DNA from: Hygrocybe punicea
Lineage: Eukaryota > Basidiomycota > Agaricomycetes > Agaricales > Hygrophoraceae
Direction of reading: 5' to 3'
Assembly (NCBI GenBank): GCA_963556145.1
Contig: OY744465.1
Location: forward strand, 6,820,001 to 6,884,000
DNA length: 64,000 nt
Below are positions 47,148 through 64,000 of this stretch, piece by piece; the first letter of the stretch is position 1; every line of letters starts with the position of its first letter. A program made the position numbers and the translations under genes. The notes beneath the pieces are model-generated. The model worked only from the letters and a program-made list of their open reading frames with translations, was not told where the DNA came from and searched no databases.

Positions 47148-49048
47148 TGTCATGATCCAAACAGGATTCGGATCAAAACATAGTAATATGCTGTCACTAG
47201 TCACCATCCCTACAGCACACATCACATTACAAGGACCATTCATACTGGAATGCCCCCATCTGCATATGGAGTAGAAAGGAATACCCTTATCTGCATATAG
47301 GACACACAGGAAATCCTTATCTGCACATAGGACATACATGAAACCCTTATCTAAACAAGGGACATGCAAGGAAACCCTTATCTACAGAAGGGACATACAA
47401 GAAAACCCTTATCTATGCAGAGGAAATGAAGGAATACCCTTATCTTAACTGATAAGGCCCCCAAAACATCTTATCAGAGGCCAAAGAAGCACAAGAAGCA
47501 CAGCCACATCCTTATCTCCAGTCATAGAGATAACACATGCCACCCATCATTCCCTGATCAAGAAGCACATCACATTTCATATCAATTGATCAAATACAGC
47601 CCAGCCCTGATCTTATCTTTTTCTTAACTGATAAGGATACCCACATGGCATGGCATCAATTGATCAAGAAGCACAGCCTCAGGAAGATGATTCTAGAAGC
47701 ACACCCTGGCACAGCCCTTGCCTCTGATTCACACACCCAAGATTAGACCAGTGGCATGACTCACTCCCATCAAATGTGACTCATTGGTCTATCCATGACA
47801 AATTATGACCCTTATGACATACTCATGACCCCCCATGACTCATTATGACCACCCATGACTAATTATGACTATTTCTGACTCATTATGCCCCCTCCTTTGA
47901 TTATAATACCTATGTGACTCATTAATTGACTCTGTATGAGTCACAAACCCATGCCTTCCTTTCTTATGACTCCTTATGAGTCATAACCCCCCATGCCTTT
48001 CATCATTATGACTCCTTATGAGTCATAAACCTATGCCTCTCCTCTATATGACTCCCTATGAGTCATATCCTATGCTCTCCATTTGATATACCATTCTATG
48101 ACTCAGTATGACTCCTGCTGTAGAATAGGTATATATAGAGCCCAGTTTCTGCTGGAGATGGCTCAGTCACCTAATCTGACAGGCCCAGTCACAGGACAGT
48201 CCCTCTCCCAGATTCTGATTCACCCCTCTGTATTTGTTTGTATTACCTACTTTGGTAGTAGCTAGTACCCAAATACCAATTGCAGTTCAAGTCATCATTC
48301 ATTTGTTTAAGGATATCAATCTCAGATTTATTGATACTCCCTTATTACTTGTTTGATATATATTCTTTGTGTTCTGTCACGTAGTACAGTCACATTCATC
48401 TTCTTTCAAGTTCTATTGATCATCACCAAAGATATCCCAGTACTTTATTCTGCACTAGTAGCCAATGTGTGTTTGAAGCTTCGGAATAAAGTCTGATATC
48501 TTGATCATCAATCCTACTTGCCTATTGTTCAGTTCATTCATTCTGTACATAGTATTTTGTCACACCTCCCTTTTGTTTGACATCTACTGTTACACTCACC
48601 CATCGCCCATCGTCTATCGCCCATCGTCCATCATCTATTGCTCATCTCTATTGTACCTCTGCTCATTGTATACTTGCTACTTGTATACTTGACTGTTGTA
48701 CACTCGTTCATCTTACACTGTTCGTACTTGCTTGAGTTATTATCTGCTTATACTCTTGCATACCTCTTGTCACTCAAAGTCTTTACCTTCAGTAGGGAAG
48801 ACCTCACTGTTCACTCATCCTCTATAAGTCATACATCTGACTTATATTATTGTCAAGTATTTGTTGTATCCCTCAAAGCTAACCTTTGATAGGATTCACA
48901 CCACAACCCAACCACCCAACAGGAATAACCCAGAGTTATTAAAGAGCTAAATCCTTGATCCCAAAGGACAACAAGGTAATTTCCCGATCAACGACGCACT
49001 CCGGAAACCCTTGGTGTGGATTTGTTCAAACACTTCCCACGCAAAACA
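47148..49048 (+). repeat. 3' LTR of G1
   Basis: 1901 bp, same length as the 5' LTR and with no difference found by eye, including the GATA-type and TGASTCA arrays. Followed by GTGT and Crypton coding sequence. Confidence 0.95.
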
Positions 49049-49052
49049 GTGT

Positions 49053-52000
49053 ATGCTCCAGCGGCGGCCATTACATCCTGCCACCCTGTCCCATTTTTCT
49101 TTTGTAAGTATTCACAGAACTTCCAAGCCGAAAAGTTGGGCTCATACTTCTCACGCAGGAAGCGGAGAGCAAGCTTGGTGTCCCAGCGGTGTCGGCTTGA
49201 CAGCTCCTGGACCAGCTGTATCACCTTCTTGCGGCGGGCATGAGGTGTCTTCAGGTTGGGAAGATTCCGCCTCCATTTTGCTCCCCACCGCTCCTCGAGC
49301 TGGTGTGTCGAGAGATAGCCATCGACGCCATTGGTCCACTCCTCCCAGATGGTGGAAATGCTCGTGACCTCGTGATATATGTAGTGTGGTAGCCAGTCCT
49401 CTGCCCGCCACTCCCAGCTGTGTTTGCGCAGGGAGGACTCCGGGTAGGCTTTGACGAGATCATTCCACCTGGTACGTTGCAAATCAGCAATGTGGTCATT
49501 GGTGAAAGGTGGCATGGGTGAGAGAGGCATGGGGGGTGAGGAGCGGCCAGCTGGGGCCTGTTGAGGGGCGCTGAGGGGTGGAGCAGCTAGAGCTGACGGT
49601 AGCAGGGGAGAGATGTTGAGTCCATATGGTGAGTTTGTGATGTTGATTGTTAACGTAGGCAATTGGCCTGGAGGCAGCGGTGGAGGTGGTGGGTTGGTGA
49701 TGGCAGCCAGCAAGCTTTGTGGTGGTTCGGCTGAAGCCTGCAACACCGGAGGGGAGAGGACTGAAGCATTTGTTAATAAACCGCTGGCAGACGAGGCCCA
49801 AGTGAAGTGTCAGCTCACCGGTTTTTCCTGCACGATGCCGTGACTTCTTTGAACTCATTTGCATATCAAGCAATGCCTTGATTGCTTCAACAGACCGGGT
49901 CAAGGATTCCAGCTGCGTGGCACACTGGGCTGAAGCACGCTGTTGCTCCAGTGTGGCACCTTGGACAAGGCCTCGAAAGGTATGGGCATACTTGTCAGGC
50001 AGGTTCTCCAAAGCAACACGAGCACTTTCCTCAGCGCTTGTGATGACTGTGCTGGAGCTGTGCGTGAAGGAAATGAAGGTAGGGTTGTTGAACGGTGCAT
50101 ATTGTAAGATAGGTGCTGTTGGATATGACAACGACAGGATGGCCATGTCCTGCAAGATGACTCGACGGAACCACAGGAGTAAGCTGAGGAAATTTTTGAG
50201 AGCTTAGTCTCGGGCACTTGGGTTTGTGGCAGACTGAGCCTCCAGGGCAGCTTGCTCCTGCTCAACCCATGGAAAGATCTCCTTCGTGAGAGTTTCGGGG
50301 GGTTCTGGTTGGCAGCTGACATGTCAGTACCCAGAAGCTTAGCAAGCCAATGAAATAACTCACTGAGAGCATCACGAAGGAGGCAGAAGGACTCAGGCTT
50401 GCGTGCATTGAACATAGCCGCACCAAGCATCGCATCAACAGGTAGGGCTCGATCATAGCATGGGTGGAAGGACCCTGTGCTATCACTCCATCCACCAAGC
50501 GCTTTGGTGCCATCAATGCTGGCACCATGCACACGGGCAGTCTGTGCCGAAAAGGGACGGGTAGCATGTGTGGATTTTGAGATGGAGATACCAACGGCAG
50601 TGTGGATGGTGTTGACACGGTCACGATGGTCTGTGAAGGACAGTAAATCATGTGTCACTGCGTCATTTAAACAAGCACTCACTCTCATAGGTCAAGCGGG
50701 ACAATGGAGACTTTCGCGTGGGCCAAAAGACGTGGTACTGATACCACAAGCGCTCCCCATATTGCCCACACTGGGGCACATCAAATTTTGGGGCAAATTC
50801 GGGAACAGGTTTGCAAAGAACATGAAAATGTGTGAAGAAGAGGAGCGCCAATGCGCCAACCCCACAGAGCTCAGTTACACGGTGATGGAGGGCACCATGC
50901 TCATCTACTCGCCCGGTTTGGTTGTGCTTTGCATTATCAGCCAGTGCCTCCAAAGCCTGAGTGAACACGATGGGGTCATCTTCTCAGCTGGAAGAGAATA
51001 CAGGGGTGAGACTCACAAGGACACGGCAACCAGGTGCAATTTCATCAAACGGGATGCTGGTCTGGAAAAGGTCCGACCAGAGCAGCATCCGGGCACTCTC
51101 ACCCCGAAACGCTGTCTGACTTGATAGCAGCATCATCACACGGTCCCAGGCAGCAATGAATAGGCGCTCGGCGCTACTGGCTGTGCTGGTAAGGCACCAG
51201 ATTGAGCAGTTTTTGAGCTCATCTATAGTGTACGTGTCTGCAAGTGCACGCACGTCAGTGACCGAAATCCTTGTGAGTCCAAGAGCACGAACCAGATGAG
51301 CTCCCTGCTGCCTTGAGGATCTGAGCCTCATCAGCACGCTTGGGCTCATTGTGCTGCACAGCCTTCTCAAATGCTATGATGCGACTGTCTGTGCGCAAGC
51401 TGATCTGAGCCGATTCGTCACTCTTGTATTCATGCTGATGATGAAACCGATGGAATTCGAGTGCCGACATGACTCCCTTGATGTGCGATACACCAACTGA
51501 GGAACCGGCAATTGTCTCATTGCTGCCATGCTTTCTCTGGGTGGCAAAAAAAAATTCAGTCCTAGCATATCACAAGTGTGGTGGGTGCATGCCTACTTTT
51601 GCTCGTGTGGATTCATGTTGGAGGAAGAGTGTGACTTTTGTAGCTGTGACAGGAAAAGCGGGTATAGGGACTCGCATGGAGTCCTCAGCAGCAATCTCCA
51701 CTTGCGTATGCTCCCACCAATCCTGGTAGCTTTTGAGGTGTCTATCGTAGGTCTTCTTCATCTGTTTTCCATTCTGCTCCTGCTGAACCATCTCGAGGCG
51801 CAGGCGGTGAGAATCATTCTCAAGTATGTCCATTGACCGCTGTGTGCGCGGTGAGATGTTGGAAGTGAGACATGCCACCACTTCATGATGTGATTTGGCA
51901 GGTCTCGGTGTACTGGTCTCATGTGCCTCCATGGGGCTGTCATCCAAAATAGGCAGTAACGGGATTGGTGAAGGCGAGAACAGGTCAATGGTGTCTCTAA

Positions 52001-53235: not shown

Positions 53236-54287
53236 AAGGTCCGGTGGCCACCGGTTTACTGCCATTTACTCATCACATGAGCATGTTCTCATGCTTCCGT
53301 CTTTGGCCTGGTTACCTTGCGACTTTGGCTGCATGTATTGAGGGAACCAGTTTCAATATGGCTAGTATATTACAAAATAGTAAGTAGAATTAAGCATATT
53401 TATCAAGTGTACCCTCCTGCGGCAGACACAACATCTTCCCACCCAGTCCCTCCTTTCTTCTGGAGATACTCACAGAACTTCCGAGCCGAAAAGTGCGGTT
53501 CATATTTCTCATGCAGGAAGCGAAGGGCAAGCTTCGTGTCCCAGCGGTGCCGGTTTGACAGCTCCTGTACCAGCCGTACAACCTTCTTCCGACGTGCGTG
53601 GGGTGTCTTCAAGGTGGGCAGATTCCGTCTCCACTTTGCCCCCCACCGCTCCTCGAGTTGGCGTGTGGAGAGGTAGCCATCCAGGCCATTTGCCCACTCC
53701 TCCCAGATGGCGGTGATGCTTGTGACCTCTGGGTACAGGTAGTGGGGCAACCAGTCTTCGGCACGCCATTCCCAGCTGTGTTGACGCAGCCGAGACTCCG
53801 GATAGGCAAGGACAAGGTCCTTCCACTTTTCAAGCTGCAGGCCGGAGATGTGGTCATTAGTAAAAGGTGGCGTTGATGAGATTGATATGGGTGGAGATGA
53901 AGGGATGGCTGGGGCAGGCTCTGGGCTGAAACCAGCAGAGACAGAAGGGTTGGCTGTGGTGGGCAGTTGTGAGACATGAAGTCCAGATGGCGAGCTGGAG
54001 ATGTTAATCGTAATGGTGGGTGGAGGGGATGGTGAGGATGGCGGTAGAGAAACTGGCGTGAGTGGAGCACAACTCATGGTAGATACGGGAACGCTCAATG
54101 GTGGCAATGGGACTGATGTGGCAAATGTGAGATGAGCAACAGTTTGTGCAAAACAATCATGAAGACATACTCGATTTTTGCAGACGTCGACGGGGCTTCT
54201 TGGCATTCATTTGCATGTCGAGCAAAACCTTCACGGCCTCAACTGCTTTGGTTAGCGTCACCAACTGTGCAACGCACTGTGCTGATG
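53236..54287 (-). mobile_element. Truncated Crypton copy 2 (C-terminal Gcr1-like domain and 3' end)
   Basis: The ORF 54206-53403 is a close homologue of the C-terminal part of copy 1: WEWRAEDWLPHYLY, IWEEWANGLDGYLS, LEERWGAKWRRNLP, ending G-G-Y-T-stop at 53403. Upstream, a coiled segment (VEAVKVLLDMQMNAKKPRRR) runs into the G2 LTR at 54288, so the recombinase part is missing. The 3' flank matches 31406-31753. Confidence 0.85.
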
Positions 54288-54851
54288 TGTTACGGATCGC
54301 TGTTCTTATGACGGCGGACTCCGGCAACAATAAACCAAACGAGGATGTATAAGGAAGAAAGCGAGTACAAACGGATGAAAGAGGAGAGGTATCTGGGTTT
54401 CGTGATAGCGATCGGGGGAAGAGTAGCTATACTAAACTTAAAGTTATTGACTACGAATGTCAATGATTATATACTAGTGAACAACTTTAGGGCCAGCTTC
54501 TTCGTCATGCGTGGCTGCGTGGAGGATAAGCTCCGGGATGAACGGCGTCTTGCTTGGCTTCGTGGTCTGTACGTTTTGGGGTGCCAACGAGGTGGCCAAC
54601 GGCTGTGTTGTAGGTCCGGTGTCAGCAGACAGCTGATCCGATGATTATGTTGCGCGGTGTTATTGAGTGCTTGTATCAACGTGTATGATGTATCGGCGGT
54701 GATCGGTTGATGAGGGTAATCACGGGGATTGGGATACCGTCGTTGGTTGTCGTCGACGATGTTCCGGACCCAGGTTATGATGTTGTCTTGTGACGTTGAG
54801 TCAGGGACGTCGGGGTCGGAAGCGGGGGTTAAATCGGGGTAAAACGTAACA
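54288..54851 (-). repeat. 3' LTR of G2
   Basis: 564 bp; in sense orientation begins TGTTACGTTTTACC and ends GATCCGTAACA. Carries AAGTTTAGTAT (complement at 54429-54439) and a TATATAAT box upstream of it. Confidence 0.95.
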
Positions 54852-55310
54852 ACACCCCCGGAACAAGGGGAATCGTCCCGATTAACCGGCGGGAAGACGG
54901 AATCATACACGGCAGCGCAGTCAATGAATTCGCGGTAAGGATCGACGGGATCATCGGTGAACCAGACGGGGATGGTGGGAGGGACAGCAGGAGGGGGAGG
55001 CCCAATGGGACGCACGGAGTAGAAGGATCGCGGGGCGAAGAACGGGTCGACGCCAAGATGGGCGATAGCCGACGTGGGGTGAACGGAGCCAAAGGAAGAG
55101 GGACGCAAGAGGTCAACAGCGAAGCGAACACCACGATCGCAGAGGCGGCGTTTCGAACGAGGGACGCGAAAGCGAGGAGGAAGGAGACGGTAATAAGGGG
55201 AAGAAGGGAGGTAAACGTCTGAGGCAGACATGGGGGAAGAAGGTAAAGAGAGAAAGAAGGAAAGAAAAGAAAACAGACAATATATACGAAAGGGAAGATT
55301 AGGGTAGGTC

Positions 55311-58300
55311 TTAGTACACGAGGTGATCGGGGTTAACGGGATGATCGCGGGTGAAGGAAGAAGGGAGAAGAGAGAAACGATGCGGAGTGGAAATGTCATA
55401 ATCGTGAGAGAGGGCGGCGGAAGGGATTGGTGATGGGAGGCGATAGCAATGGACAATGGGAAAGGCGTAAGGACAGATCTTTTTGCGAGAGTTGAAATCG
55501 AGGTTGCCGAATCCGGCGGTGTCAGCAATCCGGGCGGGAGCGACGACAGGGGAAGAGATTTCAATGATGGAGGTAACGGCATCAATGGGAGCGGTTTCAT
55601 AGAGGTAAGCGTGTGTGATGCCGGGAGGAAAAAGGTATTTACGGAATTCGTGGTTCTTTGAACCGTCGAGGATGAGGGCAGCATTGTGGGGATAAATAGC
55701 GAGTAAAATAGAGGAAGAAGAGAAAGGAGGGATGACGGAAGGGGGGAGAGTGAAAAGGGAACGAAGTGATAATGAGGAAGGAGCACAGGGATGTAACTTA
55801 TGGAAATCGTCGACGAGATCTTGGCAGTAAGCGGTTTCGGATGCGGGGATCCAAGAATCTTCGTCGCGAGGGTAATCGAGCCAATGCACTAAATAATATA
55901 ACTTGTTACGGCGTATACAGGAATCAAGGATGTGTTCTATTTCGTAATGATCGTCATTGTCGATAATTTCAGGAGGGGGTCGAAGATGATATTTTTGTTG
56001 GATGGGAGAAGAAGGAGGTCGGAATGGAGAGAGGAGAGCGACGTTGAATATGGGGAATATTTTCCAGGTTTTCGGTAATTTCAGTTTGTACGAAGAAGAA
56101 CCGATTTTATCGAGAACGGTAAACGGACCGAATTGTTGATTATCGAGCTTCTTGCTGGGTCGATCTGTGGTTAAATTCTTTCCGTTTAGCCAGACTTTAT
56201 CACCAGGGGAAAAGACAATTTTCTTGACATGACTGTCATACTTATCCTTCATTGTTTGCTTTGTGACATCCGCTATTTCGCCGATCTTTTGTTGTATCGT
56301 TTTCATTCGTGTAATGAAATCATGAACGGCTTCGTTTGCGATGGGTGTGTGTATATCAGGCATGAGACCTGTCCATGGATGTTGTCCTTGTGTTGCAAAG
56401 AAGGGGGAAGTTTTGATGGCGGAAGATTCGCGATTGGCTAATGCGAATTCTGCGAGGGCAAGCCATTCATGCCAATCGTCTTGCCGATAATTGGTGAAAA
56501 ATCGAAGGAAAATTTCGAGTTCTTGGTTCATTCGTTCCGTTTGTCCATCAGCACGTGGATGATATGCTGTCGTTGGGCGTCCTTTGATACCGATCAGGGA
56601 ATATAATTCGGTGATAAATCGTGAGACGAAAACAGAACCGCGATCGGAGATGACAAAGTGTGGCATGCCGAAACGCTTGAAGACATGATCACGGAATAGT
56701 CGTGCCCATCCTTCCGAAGTCAATGTCGTATTTGTGGCAACAAATATAGGATGTTTCGACCGTTTATCGACAACAACTAGAATGGCGTCAAAGCCATGTG
56801 ACTCCGGTAGGGGACCAATCATGTCAACGGAAATTGTATGCCAGTTATAGGGTGGTACGTCATGTGGGAAAAGTTGTCCAAGTTGTTTTCCACGTCGTGG
56901 TTTATTCTGTTGACATCCTGTACAACCATTGATATAACGTTCTACATCTTCGCGTATAGTTGGCCATGTTGTTGTCCGTGAAATTAATTCGATTGTTTTG
57001 TCACGGCCGGGATGACCGGCGGTGGGATTGTCATGATGGAGGGCAATAATGTTGTCGTTTGTAGGAGAAGTATGCAATATTTGACGGATCGCTTGTTCTG
57101 GTGGGATGAACAATGAGTTAGTAAGACCAACCATACCTGCATTGTCTATTTCTTTTGGCTTGTGATCGACACGTCGGGAAAGGAGGTCGGCTTTTTTGTT
57201 TTGTGATCCTTTTCTATACAACAAGCGGAAATTGTAATCTTGTAGGAATGCAATCCATCGTGCTTGTCGTCTTGTGAGGTCCTGTGGCTTTCGGTAATAT
57301 TCAAGATTTCGATGATCGGTGAAAACATCAACCTGTTCTTTTGCTCCGAGTAGGAAATGACGCCATTCCTCAAAACTTCGTATAATCGCGAGCAATTCTT
57401 TGTCGAAGATTTGATAGTTACGTTCTGCTGGTGACATTGTTGTCGACATATACGCGACAGGTCGGAAAAGCCCATCGGATTGTTCTTGTGACAAAATAGC
57501 ACCTATGGCATAATCGGAGGCATCACATTCGATGATGAATTTCTTATCGGGTGTAGGTAGGACAAGGATAGGATCGGTTGTGATAATTGTCTTCAATCGA
57601 TCAAATGCGTTCTGTTGTTCTTCCGTCCAATCCCATTTTGCTTTTCCTGTTAACCTATGTAGAGGAGCAGCGATTTGGGAAAAGTTTTCGACGAAACGAC
57701 GATAGAAATTTAGAAAACCGATAAACCGTTGCAATTCGGTGAGATTGGTAGGAACTGGCCAATCCGTAATTGCGTTAGTTTTAACGGGATCCATTTGGAC
57801 TTGTCCTTCACCGACGATAAGGCCGAGATAATCGACTTTTGGTTTATCGAATGTACATTTCTTGGGTTTTAGGAACAAATTGTTTTCCCGGAAGATCTTC
57901 AGGACTTGTTTCGTGCGTCGTTGATTTTCTTCCAGTGATTTTGAGAAGATCAAGATGTCATCCATGTACACCAAAAGCCAGCCTTCGCGAATTTCATATC
58001 GAAAGACATGGTTCATCAACCGTTGGAACGTTGGTGGTGAATTCTTCAACCCGAAGAACATCACAGTTGGCTCAAAAAGACCTTTCGGGGTTAAGAAAGC
58101 AGCTTTGTGTTCATCGCCTTCTTTGATCCGGACATTATTGAAACCCCACCGAACATCGAGTTTTGTAAAGAATTTTGCTTCAGCAAGTTGATTGATGATG
58201 TCATTAATTAACGGTAACGGATACTTGTCATCGACCGTCCATGAATTTAACCAGCGGTAATCCTGTATTGGTCGTCGTTTGGCAGCGTCCTTCTTCGATA

Positions 58301-59597
58301 CAAAGAAGAAAGGGGATGCATAAGGTGATTTCGATGGTCGAATTCGTCCTGTTTTGAGATTATCATCGAGAAACTTGTCGAGGTCTTGTTTTTCGACGGG
58401 AGACAACGGATATAGCTTGCAGTCGTGGTGGTCTGGCGCATCCGGTTTCAGGGTAATTGCATGATCCCAAGGTTTCCGTGCAGGTAACTCATCAAAACCA
58501 GAGGGTTCAAAGACATCGCGATATTCATGATACGTTTCGGGGATTAGTTCTTCGAATGATTTCTCTTTTTGTTGTTTCTGTGCATTGATCGCGAGTTCTG
58601 TTGATTTGGTCATGAATGAACAAAAATGCGCTGGGCTCATTGTTTCTTCCATAACTTGATCGAACCAAAGTGGTCGTTCCCAGACTACGGTATTGAATTC
58701 GGTTGACCGTATCGTCGATGGTTTGCCACAACCCAAAAGACATCGCGAGAACTTGACCTCGTTTTCGCGCCAATCAATTTCTGGGTTATGTTTTTTGAGC
58801 CAGTCGTATCCGAGGAAGATGTCCATTTTCGCTAACGTTGTTACCGCGAAACGAAGTAATTCTTGATGATCCCCAAGTCGCATTTGCAACTCGCAATATT
58901 CAGTGATCTGTCCTGTTTTTGGTTGCGTCCCATCGCTCATATACGAGTTGAACGGGTTTACGTATGGCTTCATGGGAATGTTATGTGCTTTAACGTAACC
59001 GATATCGATTGCACAGATCGTACAACCGCAATCGATCAAACCGGTCATGGGATATTGACGACCATCTTGAGTGACCGAGACGAAACCATGGACGAGTAAT
59101 GCCATACGAAGTTCAGAATCTTTCTGTGTTACTGCTCGTATTGGTTCGAGAGTTCGTGGTTCATGTGACGATTCTTGTGGCATGTTTTGTACCAACCATC
59201 GAACTGCTTCGTCAATCGTACGACGATTGAGAGAAAGCACCAAACCTGGTGAAATCTTCTCGGTCCATTGACCGTATACATCATAATCAAGCAAGAGGTC
59301 GAGGGCAAAACCCATTGTGGTCGATCGGATAGCCACAATCGTTTCCATGGCATTGAATTCAGATTCGATCGTTGTTTTCTTCTTCGTTGTTTTGTCTTCA
59401 TCAGCTGTAACATGGGTATCTTGCCACGTGTTACTTTCCTGTTTCGGTTTCGTTTCTGGTTGTTCTTTTGGTTGTTGTCTTAGGTCATTGCGGAGGTCTT
59501 TGAGTTTCGAAAATACACCATTAAATTGTTTGCATATGTGTACATCTTTCTCGAGTTGTGCGATCGTGGCCTCCTGCGCTTCACGTCGCTTTCTCAA
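55311..59597 (-). CDS. Pol polyprotein of G2 with chromodomain and C-terminal ASCH-like domain
   Basis: About 1428 codons, -1 frame to Gag. Protease with I-D-C-G-C (Asp189; Cys replaces the usual Ser/Thr) and IFLGYDWL; RT with FFVSKKDAAKRRPIQDYRWL, FTKLDVRWGFNNV and YMDD (544-547); RNase H with IIECDASDYAIGA and DHRNLEYY; integrase with the zinc HHCC (HHDNPTAGHPG ... CTGC), D925, D985 and E1021 (D-35-E); a chromodomain (about 1217-1262, YEIEHILDS, YYLVHWLDYP, DSWIP); then, after a Ser/Pro linker, residues 1297-1390 resembling ASCH domains. Start TTG is only formal; expression probably needs frameshifting at 59597-59603. The frame is intact throughout. Confidence 0.95.
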   Translation of the reverse strand: MRKRREAQEATIAQLEKDVHICKQFNGVFSKLKDLRNDLRQQPKEQPETKPKQESNTWQDTHVTADEDKTTKKKTTIESEFNAMETIVAIRSTTMGFALDLLLDYDVYGQWTEKISPGLVLSLNRRTIDEAVRWLVQNMPQESSHEPRTLEPIRAVTQKDSELRMALLVHGFVSVTQDGRQYPMTGLIDCGCTICAIDIGYVKAHNIPMKPYVNPFNSYMSDGTQPKTGQITEYCELQMRLGDHQELLRFAVTTLAKMDIFLGYDWLKKHNPEIDWRENEVKFSRCLLGCGKPSTIRSTEFNTVVWERPLWFDQVMEETMSPAHFCSFMTKSTELAINAQKQQKEKSFEELIPETYHEYRDVFEPSGFDELPARKPWDHAITLKPDAPDHHDCKLYPLSPVEKQDLDKFLDDNLKTGRIRPSKSPYASPFFFVSKKDAAKRRPIQDYRWLNSWTVDDKYPLPLINDIINQLAEAKFFTKLDVRWGFNNVRIKEGDEHKAAFLTPKGLFEPTVMFFGLKNSPPTFQRLMNHVFRYEIREGWLLVYMDDILIFSKSLEENQRRTKQVLKIFRENNLFLKPKKCTFDKPKVDYLGLIVGEGQVQMDPVKTNAITDWPVPTNLTELQRFIGFLNFYRRFVENFSQIAAPLHRLTGKAKWDWTEEQQNAFDRLKTIITTDPILVLPTPDKKFIIECDASDYAIGAILSQEQSDGLFRPVAYMSTTMSPAERNYQIFDKELLAIIRSFEEWRHFLLGAKEQVDVFTDHRNLEYYRKPQDLTRRQARWIAFLQDYNFRLLYRKGSQNKKADLLSRRVDHKPKEIDNAGMVGLTNSLFIPPEQAIRQILHTSPTNDNIIALHHDNPTAGHPGRDKTIELISRTTTWPTIREDVERYINGCTGCQQNKPRRGKQLGQLFPHDVPPYNWHTISVDMIGPLPESHGFDAILVVVDKRSKHPIFVATNTTLTSEGWARLFRDHVFKRFGMPHFVISDRGSVFVSRFITELYSLIGIKGRPTTAYHPRADGQTERMNQELEIFLRFFTNYRQDDWHEWLALAEFALANRESSAIKTSPFFATQGQHPWTGLMPDIHTPIANEAVHDFITRMKTIQQKIGEIADVTKQTMKDKYDSHVKKIVFSPGDKVWLNGKNLTTDRPSKKLDNQQFGPFTVLDKIGSSSYKLKLPKTWKIFPIFNVALLSPFRPPSSPIQQKYHLRPPPEIIDNDDHYEIEHILDSCIRRNKLYYLVHWLDYPRDEDSWIPASETAYCQDLVDDFHKLHPCAPSSLSLRSLFTLPPSVIPPFSSSSILLAIYPHNAALILDGSKNHEFRKYLFPPGITHAYLYETAPIDAVTSIIEISSPVVAPARIADTAGFGNLDFNSRKKICPYAFPIVHCYRLPSPIPSAALSHDYDISTPHRFSLLPSSFTRDHPVNPDHLVY
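55428..55709 (-). other. ASCH-like domain at the C-terminus of G2 Pol
   Basis: Residues ~1297-1390: ILLAIYPHNAALILDGSKN then G-x-K-x-x-E-x-R (G-S-K-N-H-E-F-R, 1312-1319), K-Y-L-F-P, AYLYETAPIDAVTSIIEI and a late Y-A-F-P-I-V. ASCH (PUA-like fold) proteins share the GxKxxExR signature, a following Y-x-x-x-P strand and an I-x-x-x-I-E-I strand. They are thought to bind nucleic acids or modified nucleotides. Confidence 0.75.
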
Positions 59598-60607
59598 AAA
59601 CCCTCTTGCTTCAACTTCATCGCAGCCAATTCATCCATTAATGCGGCAATTCGAGCGTCTTTGCCATCGTCTTGTTGTTGTCTCGGCGTTTGTTGAACAG
59701 TGTCCATAGAACGAATCTGTTGCCGTCCTTGTTGTTCCGGACAATTGCGTGAGATGTGTCCGGGTTGTCGACATTTGAAACAGATTCCTTTCTTCATGAA
59801 ATCCAACCGTTGCTCGTCCGTTAAACGAGTAAACGTTTGTTGTCGGGGTGTCGTTTGTCGTGTATCGACGTCCATCGGGACAGATTCTGACTGTGGACGA
59901 GGTGTTGATGTTTGTTGTGGTCGGGGGGTTGTCGATGCGGTTGGTGTGTTTGGGTTATATCGTGTTTTTGTGGATGAACTCATAGTTCGTATCTGGTTCT
60001 GACGACGTCGCCATTGTTGGTCCAATTGAACCGTTTGCGTACGCCATTCGTCGACGGTGGTTGGGATCTTCATACCGGTGTAGATCTGGTCGATCAGTGG
60101 TTTGTTCATATGTAGTTCGACGAGTTGAATGAGATATTCGTCGTTCAAGAGTTCGCCAAGCCCAGCAATGCGTCGGAGAGTGTCAAACTCAATCCAGAAT
60201 TCATCGGCTGTCATTTTTCCTTGGCGCAGGTCGTTCAACTTTGTCAGTGCGTCCTTCTTCTGATCCGGTTTCTCAAAATGCCGCTTGAATTCCTTGGTGA
60301 AGTCCTCCAGGGATCCGAAGTTGATGGGGGAGTGCTGTAGGGCAATGTCGACGTACTCGTCTGCCCATCGTCCAGCGAGTCCGCCTTGCAGGTACGAGAG
60401 GATAAAAAGGATTTGTTTTTCTTCACTGTCGAATGCAGTCCTGTTTGCACGGATGTAAATGAAGGCACTGCGGAAGAATGTTTTGAATCCTTCTTTGTTC
60501 CCATCGTACTTAGTCGGCGGAGCAATATGAGATTTTGGAGGCGACGGGGCTGCGGGTGAAACAGTGGTGGTGTCTCGGGTTTTGTGGTTCTCTTCGGTGT
60601 CTGACAT
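59594..60607 (-). CDS. Gag of G2
   Basis: 337 codons, ATG 60607 to TGA 59594. Capsid-like region (KYDGNKEGFKTFFRSAFIYI, FILSYLQGGLAGRWADEYVD, FKRHFEKPDQKKDALTKL), Gln/Thr-rich linker, zinc knuckle CFKCRQPGHISRNC (CX2CX4HX4C), and a short coiled tail ending just after the slippery site. Forms the cytoplasmic virus-like particle in relatives. Confidence 0.93.
   Translation of the reverse strand: MSDTEENHKTRDTTTVSPAAPSPPKSHIAPPTKYDGNKEGFKTFFRSAFIYIRANRTAFDSEEKQILFILSYLQGGLAGRWADEYVDIALQHSPINFGSLEDFTKEFKRHFEKPDQKKDALTKLNDLRQGKMTADEFWIEFDTLRRIAGLGELLNDEYLIQLVELHMNKPLIDQIYTGMKIPTTVDEWRTQTVQLDQQWRRRQNQIRTMSSSTKTRYNPNTPTASTTPRPQQTSTPRPQSESVPMDVDTRQTTPRQQTFTRLTDEQRLDFMKKGICFKCRQPGHISRNCPEQQGRQQIRSMDTVQQTPRQQQDDGKDARIAALMDELAAMKLKQEGF
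59597..59603 (-). promoter_or_regulatory. -1 frameshift slippery heptamer at the Gag-Pol junction
   Basis: In sense orientation G-GGT-TTT-TGA: GGGTTTT fits X-XXY-YYZ in the Gag frame and is followed at once by the Gag stop. A -1 slip gives GGG-TTT-TTG-AGA and enters Pol. A downstream stimulatory structure was not assessed. Confidence 0.7.
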
Positions 60608-60846
60608 TCTGGTTTGGGTGTGGAATTGAGATTGATAGTGAGAAGTAGATGTTGGAGGAGGAAATGATGACGAGGGGAAAGGCGCGGTTCGGACACTTGT
60701 CTGTGTTGCGACGTATTGGTCGAAGTCGTCGTCAGAGGAATCTGACGTTTCGGGCGCGAGATGGTATTCGTCGTTGCGTTCTGAGTCTGGGGTTTGGTAT
60801 CGTCGGGGTTCCAGGTCGTCTTGGTTTATTGTCGAGGAAGTAGAGA
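60608..60846 (-). other. Leader of G2
   Basis: About 240 bp between the priming site and the Gag ATG. No further motif recognised. Confidence 0.5.
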
Positions 60847-60857
60847 AAGTTTAGTAT
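60847..60857 (-). other. Self-priming site of G2
   Basis: Sense ATACTAAACTT begins 2 bases inside the 5' LTR end and is the exact complement of AAGTTTAGTAT in the LTR (61001-61011), which lies ~30 bp after a TATATAAT box (61038-61045) and so near the expected transcript start. Confidence 0.75.
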
Positions 60858-60859
60858 TA

Positions 60860-61423
60860 TGTTACGGATCGCTGTTCTTATGACGGCGGACTCCGGCAAC
60901 AATAAACCAAACGAGGATGTATAAGGAAGAAAGCGAGTACAAACGGATGAAAGAGGAGAGGTATCTGGGTTTCGTGATAGCGATCGGGGGAAGAGTAGCT
61001 ATACTAAACTTAAAGTTATTGACTACGAATGTCAATGATTATATACTAGTGAACAACTTTAGGGCCGGCTTCTTCGTCATGCGTGGCTGCGTGGAGGATA
61101 AGCTCCGGGATGAACGGCGTCTTGCTTGGCTTCGTGGTCTGTACGTTTTGGGGTGCCAACGAGGTGGCCAACGGCTGTGTTGTAGGTCCGGTGTCAGCAG
61201 ACAGCTGATCCGATGATTATGTTGCGCGGTGTTATTGAGTGCTTGTATCAACATGTATGATGTATCGGCGGTGATCGGTTGATGAGGGTAATCACGGGGA
61301 TTGGGATACCGTCGTTGGTTGTCGTCGACGATGTTCCGGACCCAGGTTATGATGTTGTCTTGTGACGTTGAGTCAGGGACGTCGGGGTCGGAAGCGGGGG
61401 TTAAATCGGGGTAAAACGTAACA
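60860..61423 (-). repeat. 5' LTR of G2
   Basis: 564 bp, two differences from the 3' LTR by eye (in GGCCGGCTT versus GGCCAGCTT and in CAACATG versus CAACGTG). TATATAAT and the predicted transcript start are described under the self-priming site. Confidence 0.95.
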
Positions 61424-61427
61424 TGAT

Positions 61428-62341
61428 TGTTACATTTTTCAACTCCGCAACTCCGATTCCGACTCCACTACCCACGATGACGATTCCACTTTACCATACC
61501 TTCCTTTTTCGTTCCCCTTTACCTTTTGTCTTCTTTTGGACATTGTTGTTTATTCTTGTCCTTGTTCTCTTTTCTTCCTTTCTTCTTCTAGAACAATCCA
61601 GACCGACCATGGACACATCCCCACGTTACCTTGCTGTACCCGAATAGTCTCCTTGCCGACGGACATCATCGCTATTGTCTTTTCCCTTGCCCTGACATAT
61701 TGTTGACTTCATCCCACGACAAACCGATTTACAATGGCTGTACTCCCAACACAGCTAATTACCGTAATCATCATTGGCAGCATCGCCATCACCTTCCTGA
61801 TCGGTTTTTACCTTGTTATGTTCTATCTTTGGCATCGGTACCGAAACCCTTCTGCCATCAATACTTCCGATCATCGACGACAATCAACGACGATATCCAA
61901 ATCCACATGACTATCCTCATCATCCGATTGCCGCCGATACATCATACACGTTGGTACAAGCCCTTAATAATACCGCGCAGCACAATCACCGAATCAGCTG
62001 TCTGCTGACACCGGACATGCAACATAGCCGATGGCCACCACGTTGGCACCCTAAAACGCACAGACCACGAAGCACACGAAGACGCCGTTCATCTCGGAGC
62101 TTATCCTCGACGCAGCCACGCATGACGAAGAAGCCAACCCTGAAGTCGTTCGATAGTATTTAGTCGGACAATTGTAGTCAGTAACCTTAAGTTTAGTCTA
62201 GCTACTCTTCCCCCGATTGCTACCTGACACCTAGACTCCTCCTTCTTCATACATTTGTTTGTATCCGCTTCTCTCTTTATCAATCATCCTCGTTTGGTTC
62301 TTTGTTGCCGGAGTCCGCTATAAGAACAGCGATCCGTAACA
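61428..62341 (+). repeat. 5' LTR of gypsy element G3
   Basis: 914 bp, TGTTACATTTTTC...GATCCGTAACA. Its 3' half matches the G2 LTR, its 5' half matches the solo LTR at 36477-38061. AAGTTTAGTCT (62189-62199) lies ~30 bp after a weak TATTTAG. Only TGAT separates it from G2. Confidence 0.9.
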
Positions 62342-62343
62342 TA

Positions 62344-62354
62344 AGACTAAACTT
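62344..62354 (+). other. Self-priming site of G3
   Basis: AGACTAAACTT, 2 bases after the LTR, exactly complementary to AAGTTTAGTCT at 62189-62199. Differs from the G2 site by one compensated base pair. Confidence 0.75.
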
Positions 62355-62588
62355 TCTTTACTCCCTCGACAAACGAACCAAAACAACCTGGAACCTCGAC
62401 GATACCGAACCCCAAACTGGGAACACGACGACGAATATCACCTTGCACCCGAGACGTCAGAATCTTCTGACGACGATTTCGACCACTACGTCGCAGAACA
62501 GACTACCTTCCGACCCCCGTCTTTCCCCCCGCCATCATTTTCTGCTTCAACACTTACTCTTCACCATCAAACACACAGACACACCAGA

Positions 62589-64000
62589 ATGTCAGACACC
62601 GAAGAAAACCATGAAGTCCAAGACACCACCGCTGTTGCACCTGCAGCCCCGTCATCTCCCAAATCTCATATCGCTCCGCCGGCTAAATACGATGGAAACA
62701 AGGCGGGATTCAAAACGTTCCTCCGAAGTGCCCATATCTATATCCGAGCAAACAGAACCGCTTTCGATTCAGAGGAGAAGCAAATCCTTTTTATCCTCTC
62801 GTATTTGCAAGGCGGACTCGCCGGACGATGGGCGGACGAGTACGTCGACATTGCCTTGCAGCACGACCCCGTCAACTTCGGAAGTCTGGATGACTTCACG
62901 AAGGAATTTAGACGCCACTTTGAAAAACCGGATCAGAAGAAGGACGCATTGACAAAGTTGAACGACTACGTCAAGGAAAAATGACAGCAGACGAATTCTG
63001 GATCGAGTTTGATACTCTCCGACGTCTTGCTGGGCTGAGCGAAATGTTCAACGAGAGTTATCTCATCCAACTCGTCGAACTCCACATGAACAAACCATTG
63101 ATCGATCAAATCTATACTGGGATGATGATCCCAACTACCATCGAGGAATGGCGCGAACAAACGGTCAGACTTGATCAACAATGGCGACGTCGTCAGGAAC
63201 AAGTACGATCGATGAATCTACCCACAAAAACACGATACAATCCAAACGCGACAACCACATCGACTACTCCTCGAACACAACAAACATCAGTACCTCGCCC
63301 ACAGTCGGAATCTGTCCCGATGGACATTGACAAACAGCAAACGTTACCTCAACGGCAAACGTTTACCCGCTTGACGGATGAACAACGGTTGGATTTCATG
63401 AAGAAAGGAATTTGTTTTAAATGTCGACAACCCGGACACATCTCACGTAACTGTCCGGAACAACAAGGACGGCAACAGATTCGTTCTATGAATCCGTTCA
63501 ACTCCTACATGAGTGATGGAACGCAACCAAAAACAGGACAGATCACGGAATATTGTGAGTTACAAATGCGTGTTGGCGATCATCAAGAATTACTCCGTTT
63601 TGCGGTAACAACATTGGCCAAGATGGATATTTTCCTCGGATACGATTGGTTGAAGAAGCACAACCCAGAAATTGATTGGCGAGAAAACGAGATCAAGTTT
63701 TCTCGATGTCTTTCTGGTTGCGGAACGTCATCAATAATACGTTCAACTGAATTTGACACGGTAGTTTGGGAACGACCCCTTTGGTTCGATCAAGTTATGG
63801 AGGAAACAATGGATCCCATACACTTTCGCTCCTTTATGACGAAGTCAACAGAACTTGCCATCAAAGCACAAGAACAACAAAAAGAAAAGACCTTCGAGGA
63901 ATTGGTACCCGAAACATATCATGAATATCGAGATGTTTTCGAACCGTCTGGCTTTGATGAATTACCCGCACGAAAACCATGGGATCACGCTATAACGTTG
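62589..64000 (+). pseudogene. Gag-Pol of gypsy element G3, frameshifted and deleted, cut by window end
   Basis: Gag starts at ATG 62589 and closely matches G2 Gag, but the frame breaks near 62970 (where G2 reads NDLRQGKMTADEF). After that the frame is open through the zinc knuckle CFKCRQPGHISRNC to Q-I-R-S-M at about 63489, where it jumps directly to NPFNSYMSDGT of Pol (residue ~214 in G2). The deletion removes the Gag tail, the frameshift site and the protease active-site Asp, and leaves Gag and Pol in one frame. The remaining sequence runs to L-P-A-R-K-P-W-D-H at the end of the window, before the RT core. Confidence 0.92.

Follow-up and report, generated by a model that had tools for sequence, protein, structure and literature searches.

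The window analysed here, a 64,000-nucleotide stretch of the Hygrocybe punicea genome (contig OY744465.1, positions 6,820,001 to 6,884,000), contains on its minus strand a 7136 bp retroelement (54288-61423) whose Pol polyprotein ends in a putative ASCH domain. Gag, reverse transcriptase (RT), RNase H, integrase and a chromodomain lie between two long terminal repeats (LTRs), as in chromoviruses (Ty3/Gypsy), with which the element also shares an SH3 domain. The Pol frame is open over 1428 amino acids (aa), counted from the first TTG. The features of the element, including its open reading frames (ORFs), are as follows:

54288..54851, minus strand: 3' LTR, 564 bp, TG...CA, with 562 of 564 bases the same as in the 5' LTR
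54467..55231, minus strand: third ORF, 254 aa, starting 79 nt beyond the stop codon of pol and extending into the 3' LTR
55311..59597, minus strand: Pol ORF, with a protease-like region (sub-threshold in Pfam), RT, RNase H, integrase, SH3, chromodomain and putative ASCH domain
55329..55715, minus strand: putative ASCH domain, Pol aa 1295-1423 (129 aa), placed from profiles, predicted structure and selection
55716..55796, minus strand: linker between chromodomain and ASCH domain, placed from the domain limits and the end point of another chromovirus (L078)
55797..55946, minus strand: chromodomain, Pol aa 1218-1267, Pfam E 1.6e-11
56022..56204, minus strand: SH3_Tf2-1 domain, Pol aa 1132-1192, Pfam E 2.5e-16
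59594..60607, minus strand: Gag ORF, Pfam Ty3_capsid 3.5e-9, Retrotrans_gag 4.6e-9 and zf-CCHC (zinc knuckle) 1.4e-6
60860..61423, minus strand: 5' LTR, 564 bp, differing from the 3' LTR at 2 positions

A recent insertion is suggested, because the two 564 bp LTRs differ at only two positions. The flanks read TGATG and TGATT, with four of five bases the same, and form a candidate target-site duplication.

Identity of the Pol tail

A first-pass annotation of the window had described about 160 residues of Pol beyond the chromodomain as ASCH-like from their motifs. The Pol does continue for 161 residues past the Pfam chromodomain end, and the tail contains GSKNHEFR (corresponding to GxKxxExR), YLYETAP and IIEI. 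The span given at that stage, 55428-55709, lies within the domain as now modelled but covers only about its first three quarters.

In both fold and profile comparisons the best match of the tail domain was ZmASCH of Zymomonas mobilis (PDB 5GUQ/5GUS/5Y6B/5Y6C), with E-values of 2e-5 for profile A1 and 4.4e-6 for profile A3. The structure predicted from 24 alignment rows (pLDDT 82; an 18-row prediction with pLDDT 48 was poor and was set aside) has the PUA-like beta-barrel of the ASCH superfamily, and a search of BFVD with it gave two matches at E <= 0.001, both without a protein name there, and phage proteins named ASCH at lower ranks. The KxxExR motif is strongly conserved (K in 29/29 rows with a residue there, E in 29/30, R in 30/30), a bacterial relative shares the PPQSF end of the domain, and the tail matches PHROG 3136, a family of unknown function (E 4.5e-7). 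An ASCH/PUA match was obtained rather than none, and the profiles, the predicted structure and the bacterial relative together support the tail as a genuine ASCH (PUA-like) domain.

Two results weigh against this assignment. The window tail alone matched ZmASCH at E 0.19 only, behind an unrelated enzyme at 0.17, and the window copy gave no match at the cut-off of the Pfam ASCH family PF04266 (21.2 bits). Weak PF04266 matches were obtained for 7 of 18 rows (best E 0.047) and for 2 of 8 rows (best E 0.0031), none shown above the cut-off. Pfam and NCBIfam gave no match on the tail, and a search of the genome with PF04266 returned no candidates. Among 153 candidates from a protein database search with the window Pol tail, none reached E <= 1e-3, and IMG/VR scans with profiles A1 and A3 found no relative.

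ZmASCH shares with the tail the predicted fold and the KxxExR / Y-x-T signature, but is a stand-alone bacterial RNase with 15-19% identity in Foldseek alignments, and its K53 and S128 are not kept here. The ASCH domain of TRIP4/ASC-1, like that of the window, is eukaryotic and lies at a protein C-terminus; it was solved with dsDNA and contributes to the DNA affinity of a helicase complex (PMC10076317). It differs in belonging to that complex and not to a retroelement, and the identity is 10-14%.

Copies, selection and origin

In the genome (92.2 Mb, 42 contigs) at least 152 matches to the tail were found. The matches listed include 32 with an open frame of 1435-1451 aa, here called family 1, and 21 with one of 1491 aa, family 2; the remainder are in other, mostly shorter frames. 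Selection was estimated from the 30 best-scoring of the 152 matches, which are hence close relatives, with the 16 copies that have stop-free, ungapped frames from integrase to tail as the main set; pairwise dN/dS values were pooled as though the pairs were independent. The ASCH domain gave a dN/dS of 0.100 (codon bootstrap 0.066-0.147), the same value as the integrase (0.100); SH3/chromodomain gave 0.034, and the 45 residues at the start of the tail gave 0.101. Off-frame readings of the ASCH segment gave 2.1 and 2.9. For 28 of the 30 copies the value for this segment was 0.094; in the 12 of these whose upstream frames are broken it was 0.114, in keeping with most of the change having arisen before insertion. 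The ASCH domain is retained in Pol by selection, and the tail is neither missing from all related copies nor neutral, a combination that, like the lack of any ASCH/PUA match, would have counted against the first-pass annotation. A chance reading frame is ruled out by the dN/dS values and their off-frame controls, a single mutant copy by the number of matches genome-wide, and read-through into a neighbouring host gene by the position of the domain between the LTRs and its recurrence in many copies.

Other chromoviruses of this genome differ from the window element in this respect. Six sampled divergent loci (32-40% identity, three frames each) gave no ASCH profile match, the best E-value being 0.85 versus 1.9e-58 for the window copy. 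The frames of L075, L077, L078 and L079 stop 23-41 aa past the aligned integrase-chromodomain region, with L078 ending 28 aa after it, near the start of the window linker; L076 runs on for 96 aa, and L080 is stopped inside the chromodomain region. Judged from these sequences, ASCH is a lineage-specific gain among the chromoviruses of this genome.

The domain also occurs in other Pol contexts. Family 2 (for example L047) has a Ty3-type Pol without a chromodomain match. In the RT-RNase H part (480 columns) this Pol shares 28% identity with that of the window, yet identity to the window ASCH reaches 40% in the ~130 residues at its end. A protein database search with the family 2 tail gave 176 candidates, among them two Pol proteins from JGI metagenomes. 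P0013 is 78% identical to family 2 and has the same ASCH ending. P0014 (33 member sequences) is Ty3-type, with 67% and 50% identity to family 2 over two long segments, and has the order RNase H, dUTPase (aa 631-759, E 2.8e-39), ASCH (aa 768-900; 52% identical), integrase. In P0008, ASCH lies behind a partial chromodomain (E 7.9e-4, below the Pfam cut-off). Because of the arrangements in family 2, P0013, P0014 and P0008, the ASCH module is present in at least two Pol types and in three positions.

Stand-alone proteins of the same ASCH family were found in Ganoderma, Hymenopellis and Polytolypa, and the host genome itself has such a gene (L048, G000:C3:300098-300730, minus strand), with two exons and a predicted product of 178 aa. 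The N-termini of the host, Ganoderma and Hymenopellis proteins have stretches that we take to be vaguely like PCNA-binding boxes. The intron of the host gene (99 bp, GTATGT...TAG) is lacking from the retroelement tails, as expected for capture through RNA, other routes also being possible. In a tree of 25 of 30 ASCH sequences (three distant bacterial sequences and two near-duplicates were dropped), a split with 100/100 sets the bacterial proteins apart from the rest. Branches among the stand-alone fungal proteins mostly lack support, and the node uniting all retroelement sequences has 38.5/61. The P0014 domain clusters with P0005 and P0008 (98.9/98) and apart from family 2. Constraining family 2, P0013 and P0014 together was rejected (p-AU 0.0026), as was constraining the window family with P0008 (p-AU 0.002, a test weakened by the truncation of P0008); a single clade of all retroelement ASCH domains was not rejected (p-AU 0.53). 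Both a single capture followed by exchange and several captures fit the tree. The domain appears to belong to the fungal stand-alone ASCH family, and was probably captured from a fungal gene, with module exchange between elements.

The third ORF is full in 21 of the 30 copies, and in these 21, chosen for their full frames, dN/dS was 0.155 before the LTR and 0.224 inside it (off-frame controls 1.0-1.8); it had no match in Pfam or PDB. In a nearby copy (L054, G000:C7:6885000-6887500) the Pol frame continues past ASCH into the third ORF and is open over 1661 aa. A second, related element occupies 61424-64000 on the plus strand, head-to-head with the first, with long inverted arms that are 82-86% alike; its Gag is split over two ORFs (62589-62984 and from 62981 onward). 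On the minus strand, two mutually similar ORFs (48991-49746 and 53406-54206) each contain a GCR1_C domain (E 3.1e-13 and 1.3e-13), a type of domain that occurs in Crypton-type transposons.

Possible function of the domain

The explanation that we consider the probable one for these observations taken together is that a fungal-type ASCH domain was taken into a Ty3-type Pol and kept by selection as a second reader acting with the integrase. Lying behind SH3 and the chromodomain at the end of the integrase region, it most likely travels with the integrase, presumably staying attached to it after proteolysis. It would bind nucleic acid, either that of the element (RNA or cDNA) or the target DNA, possibly at a modified base, and this binding would improve genome handling in the particle or target choice. 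The first-pass annotation had suggested packaging, the reading of modified RNA or targeting as possible roles.

The window copy keeps the equivalents of ZmASCH K27, E30, R32, Y47 and T49, and has Asp for K53, His for Q127 and Arg for S128. Y47, K53 and S128 each have a part in binding or cleavage by ZmASCH (PMC5615036). A ribonuclease cutting host or element RNA would accord with the closest solved relative, ZmASCH, being a Mg-dependent ssRNA nuclease and with the retention of Tyr47; changing K53 or S128, however, lowered nucleic-acid binding by ZmASCH (PMC5615036), and with Tyr, Asp and Arg at the three positions the window copy makes this activity very improbable. At the Q127 position, Gln is found in all four named or host fungal stand-alone proteins, in P0006 and in all eight bacterial rows with a residue there; the retroelement rows have His (12, several of them near-duplicates) or Leu (2), and P0004 and P0007, both of unproven origin, have Glu and Thr. 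This replacement of Gln by His or Leu hints at a changed ligand. The contrast between Gln in the four fungal proteins and P0006 and His in the 12 retroelement rows, as a possible change of function, and the presence of a stand-alone ASCH gene in the same genome, could also point to a decoy, by which the element copy competes with the host protein for a partner or ligand in counter-defence. There is no evidence of a defence role for the host ASCH protein, and we regard such a decoy as unlikely. Least probable of all is hydrolysis of acylated cytidine as by E. coli YqfB, which is of the same superfamily and whose KxxxxR motif has its Lys and Arg kept here: the position that we take to be that of the nucleophile Thr24 is Glu in 29 of 30 rows, including the window copy, and Ala in one. 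The change of Thr24 to Ala inactivates YqfB (PMC6972931). Because the equivalents of ZmASCH K53 and S128 and of YqfB Thr24 are replaced, we favour binding without catalysis, with the domain presumably tethered to the integrase in both families of this genome. Strong unspecific RNA binding is made less likely by the neutral charge of the window domain.

Another reading would make ASCH a particle-borne cargo comparable to dUTPase, placed anywhere in Pol and serving nucleic-acid or nucleotide quality in reverse transcription rather than targeting. Like the window element, Ty3 elements of Postia, Phanerochaete and Tuber carry an extra Pol domain, in Postia at varying positions, but this is a dUTPase, apparently acquired independently, and not ASCH (PMC2864245); P0014 carries both, with ASCH directly behind dUTPase and ahead of the integrase. 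Both families of this genome, on the other hand, have ASCH at the Pol C-terminus behind the integrase, and no dUTPase match was found in the scanned Pol of either, so that we give this reading about one chance in a few, above the decoy and below the second reader acting with the integrase.

Lasting domain gains by LTR retrotransposons are considered rare (PMC9289625). Gypsy elements of Phalaenopsis with an AlkB m6A demethylase are another case of Ty3/Gypsy elements gaining a host-kind protein for RNA modification, although AlkB is a separate ORF of another fold with an enzyme activity that has been demonstrated (PMC9289625). Section 12 of that paper does not name ASCH among extra domains. No paper among those listed in searches of the PMC open literature describes, in its title or abstract start, ASCH in a retrotransposon; in passages of the two open PMC papers that have both 'ASCH domain' and 'retrotransposon', ASCH denotes unrelated genes, and the main text of a fungal transposable element co-option screen does not contain 'ASCH'.

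Binding of modified bases has been predicted for some ASCH domains (Bell et al. 2020, PMC7641849). We tentatively hypothesize, as a speculative extension, that ASCH is a shared mobile module of fungal Ty3-type elements, probably from a fungal gene, that reads modified or special nucleic acid; together with the chromodomain it would make a dual-reader integrase, for histone tail and nucleic acid, with the Gln-to-His change marking a retroelement-specific ligand. One small domain is found in three positions and in no fewer than two Pol types, is in one of these selected as strongly as the integrase, and has a cellular relative in the same genome. This provides a natural experiment on the benefit that an ASCH module brings to Ty3-type elements, and a way to learn what an uncharacterised family of fungal ASCH genes does.
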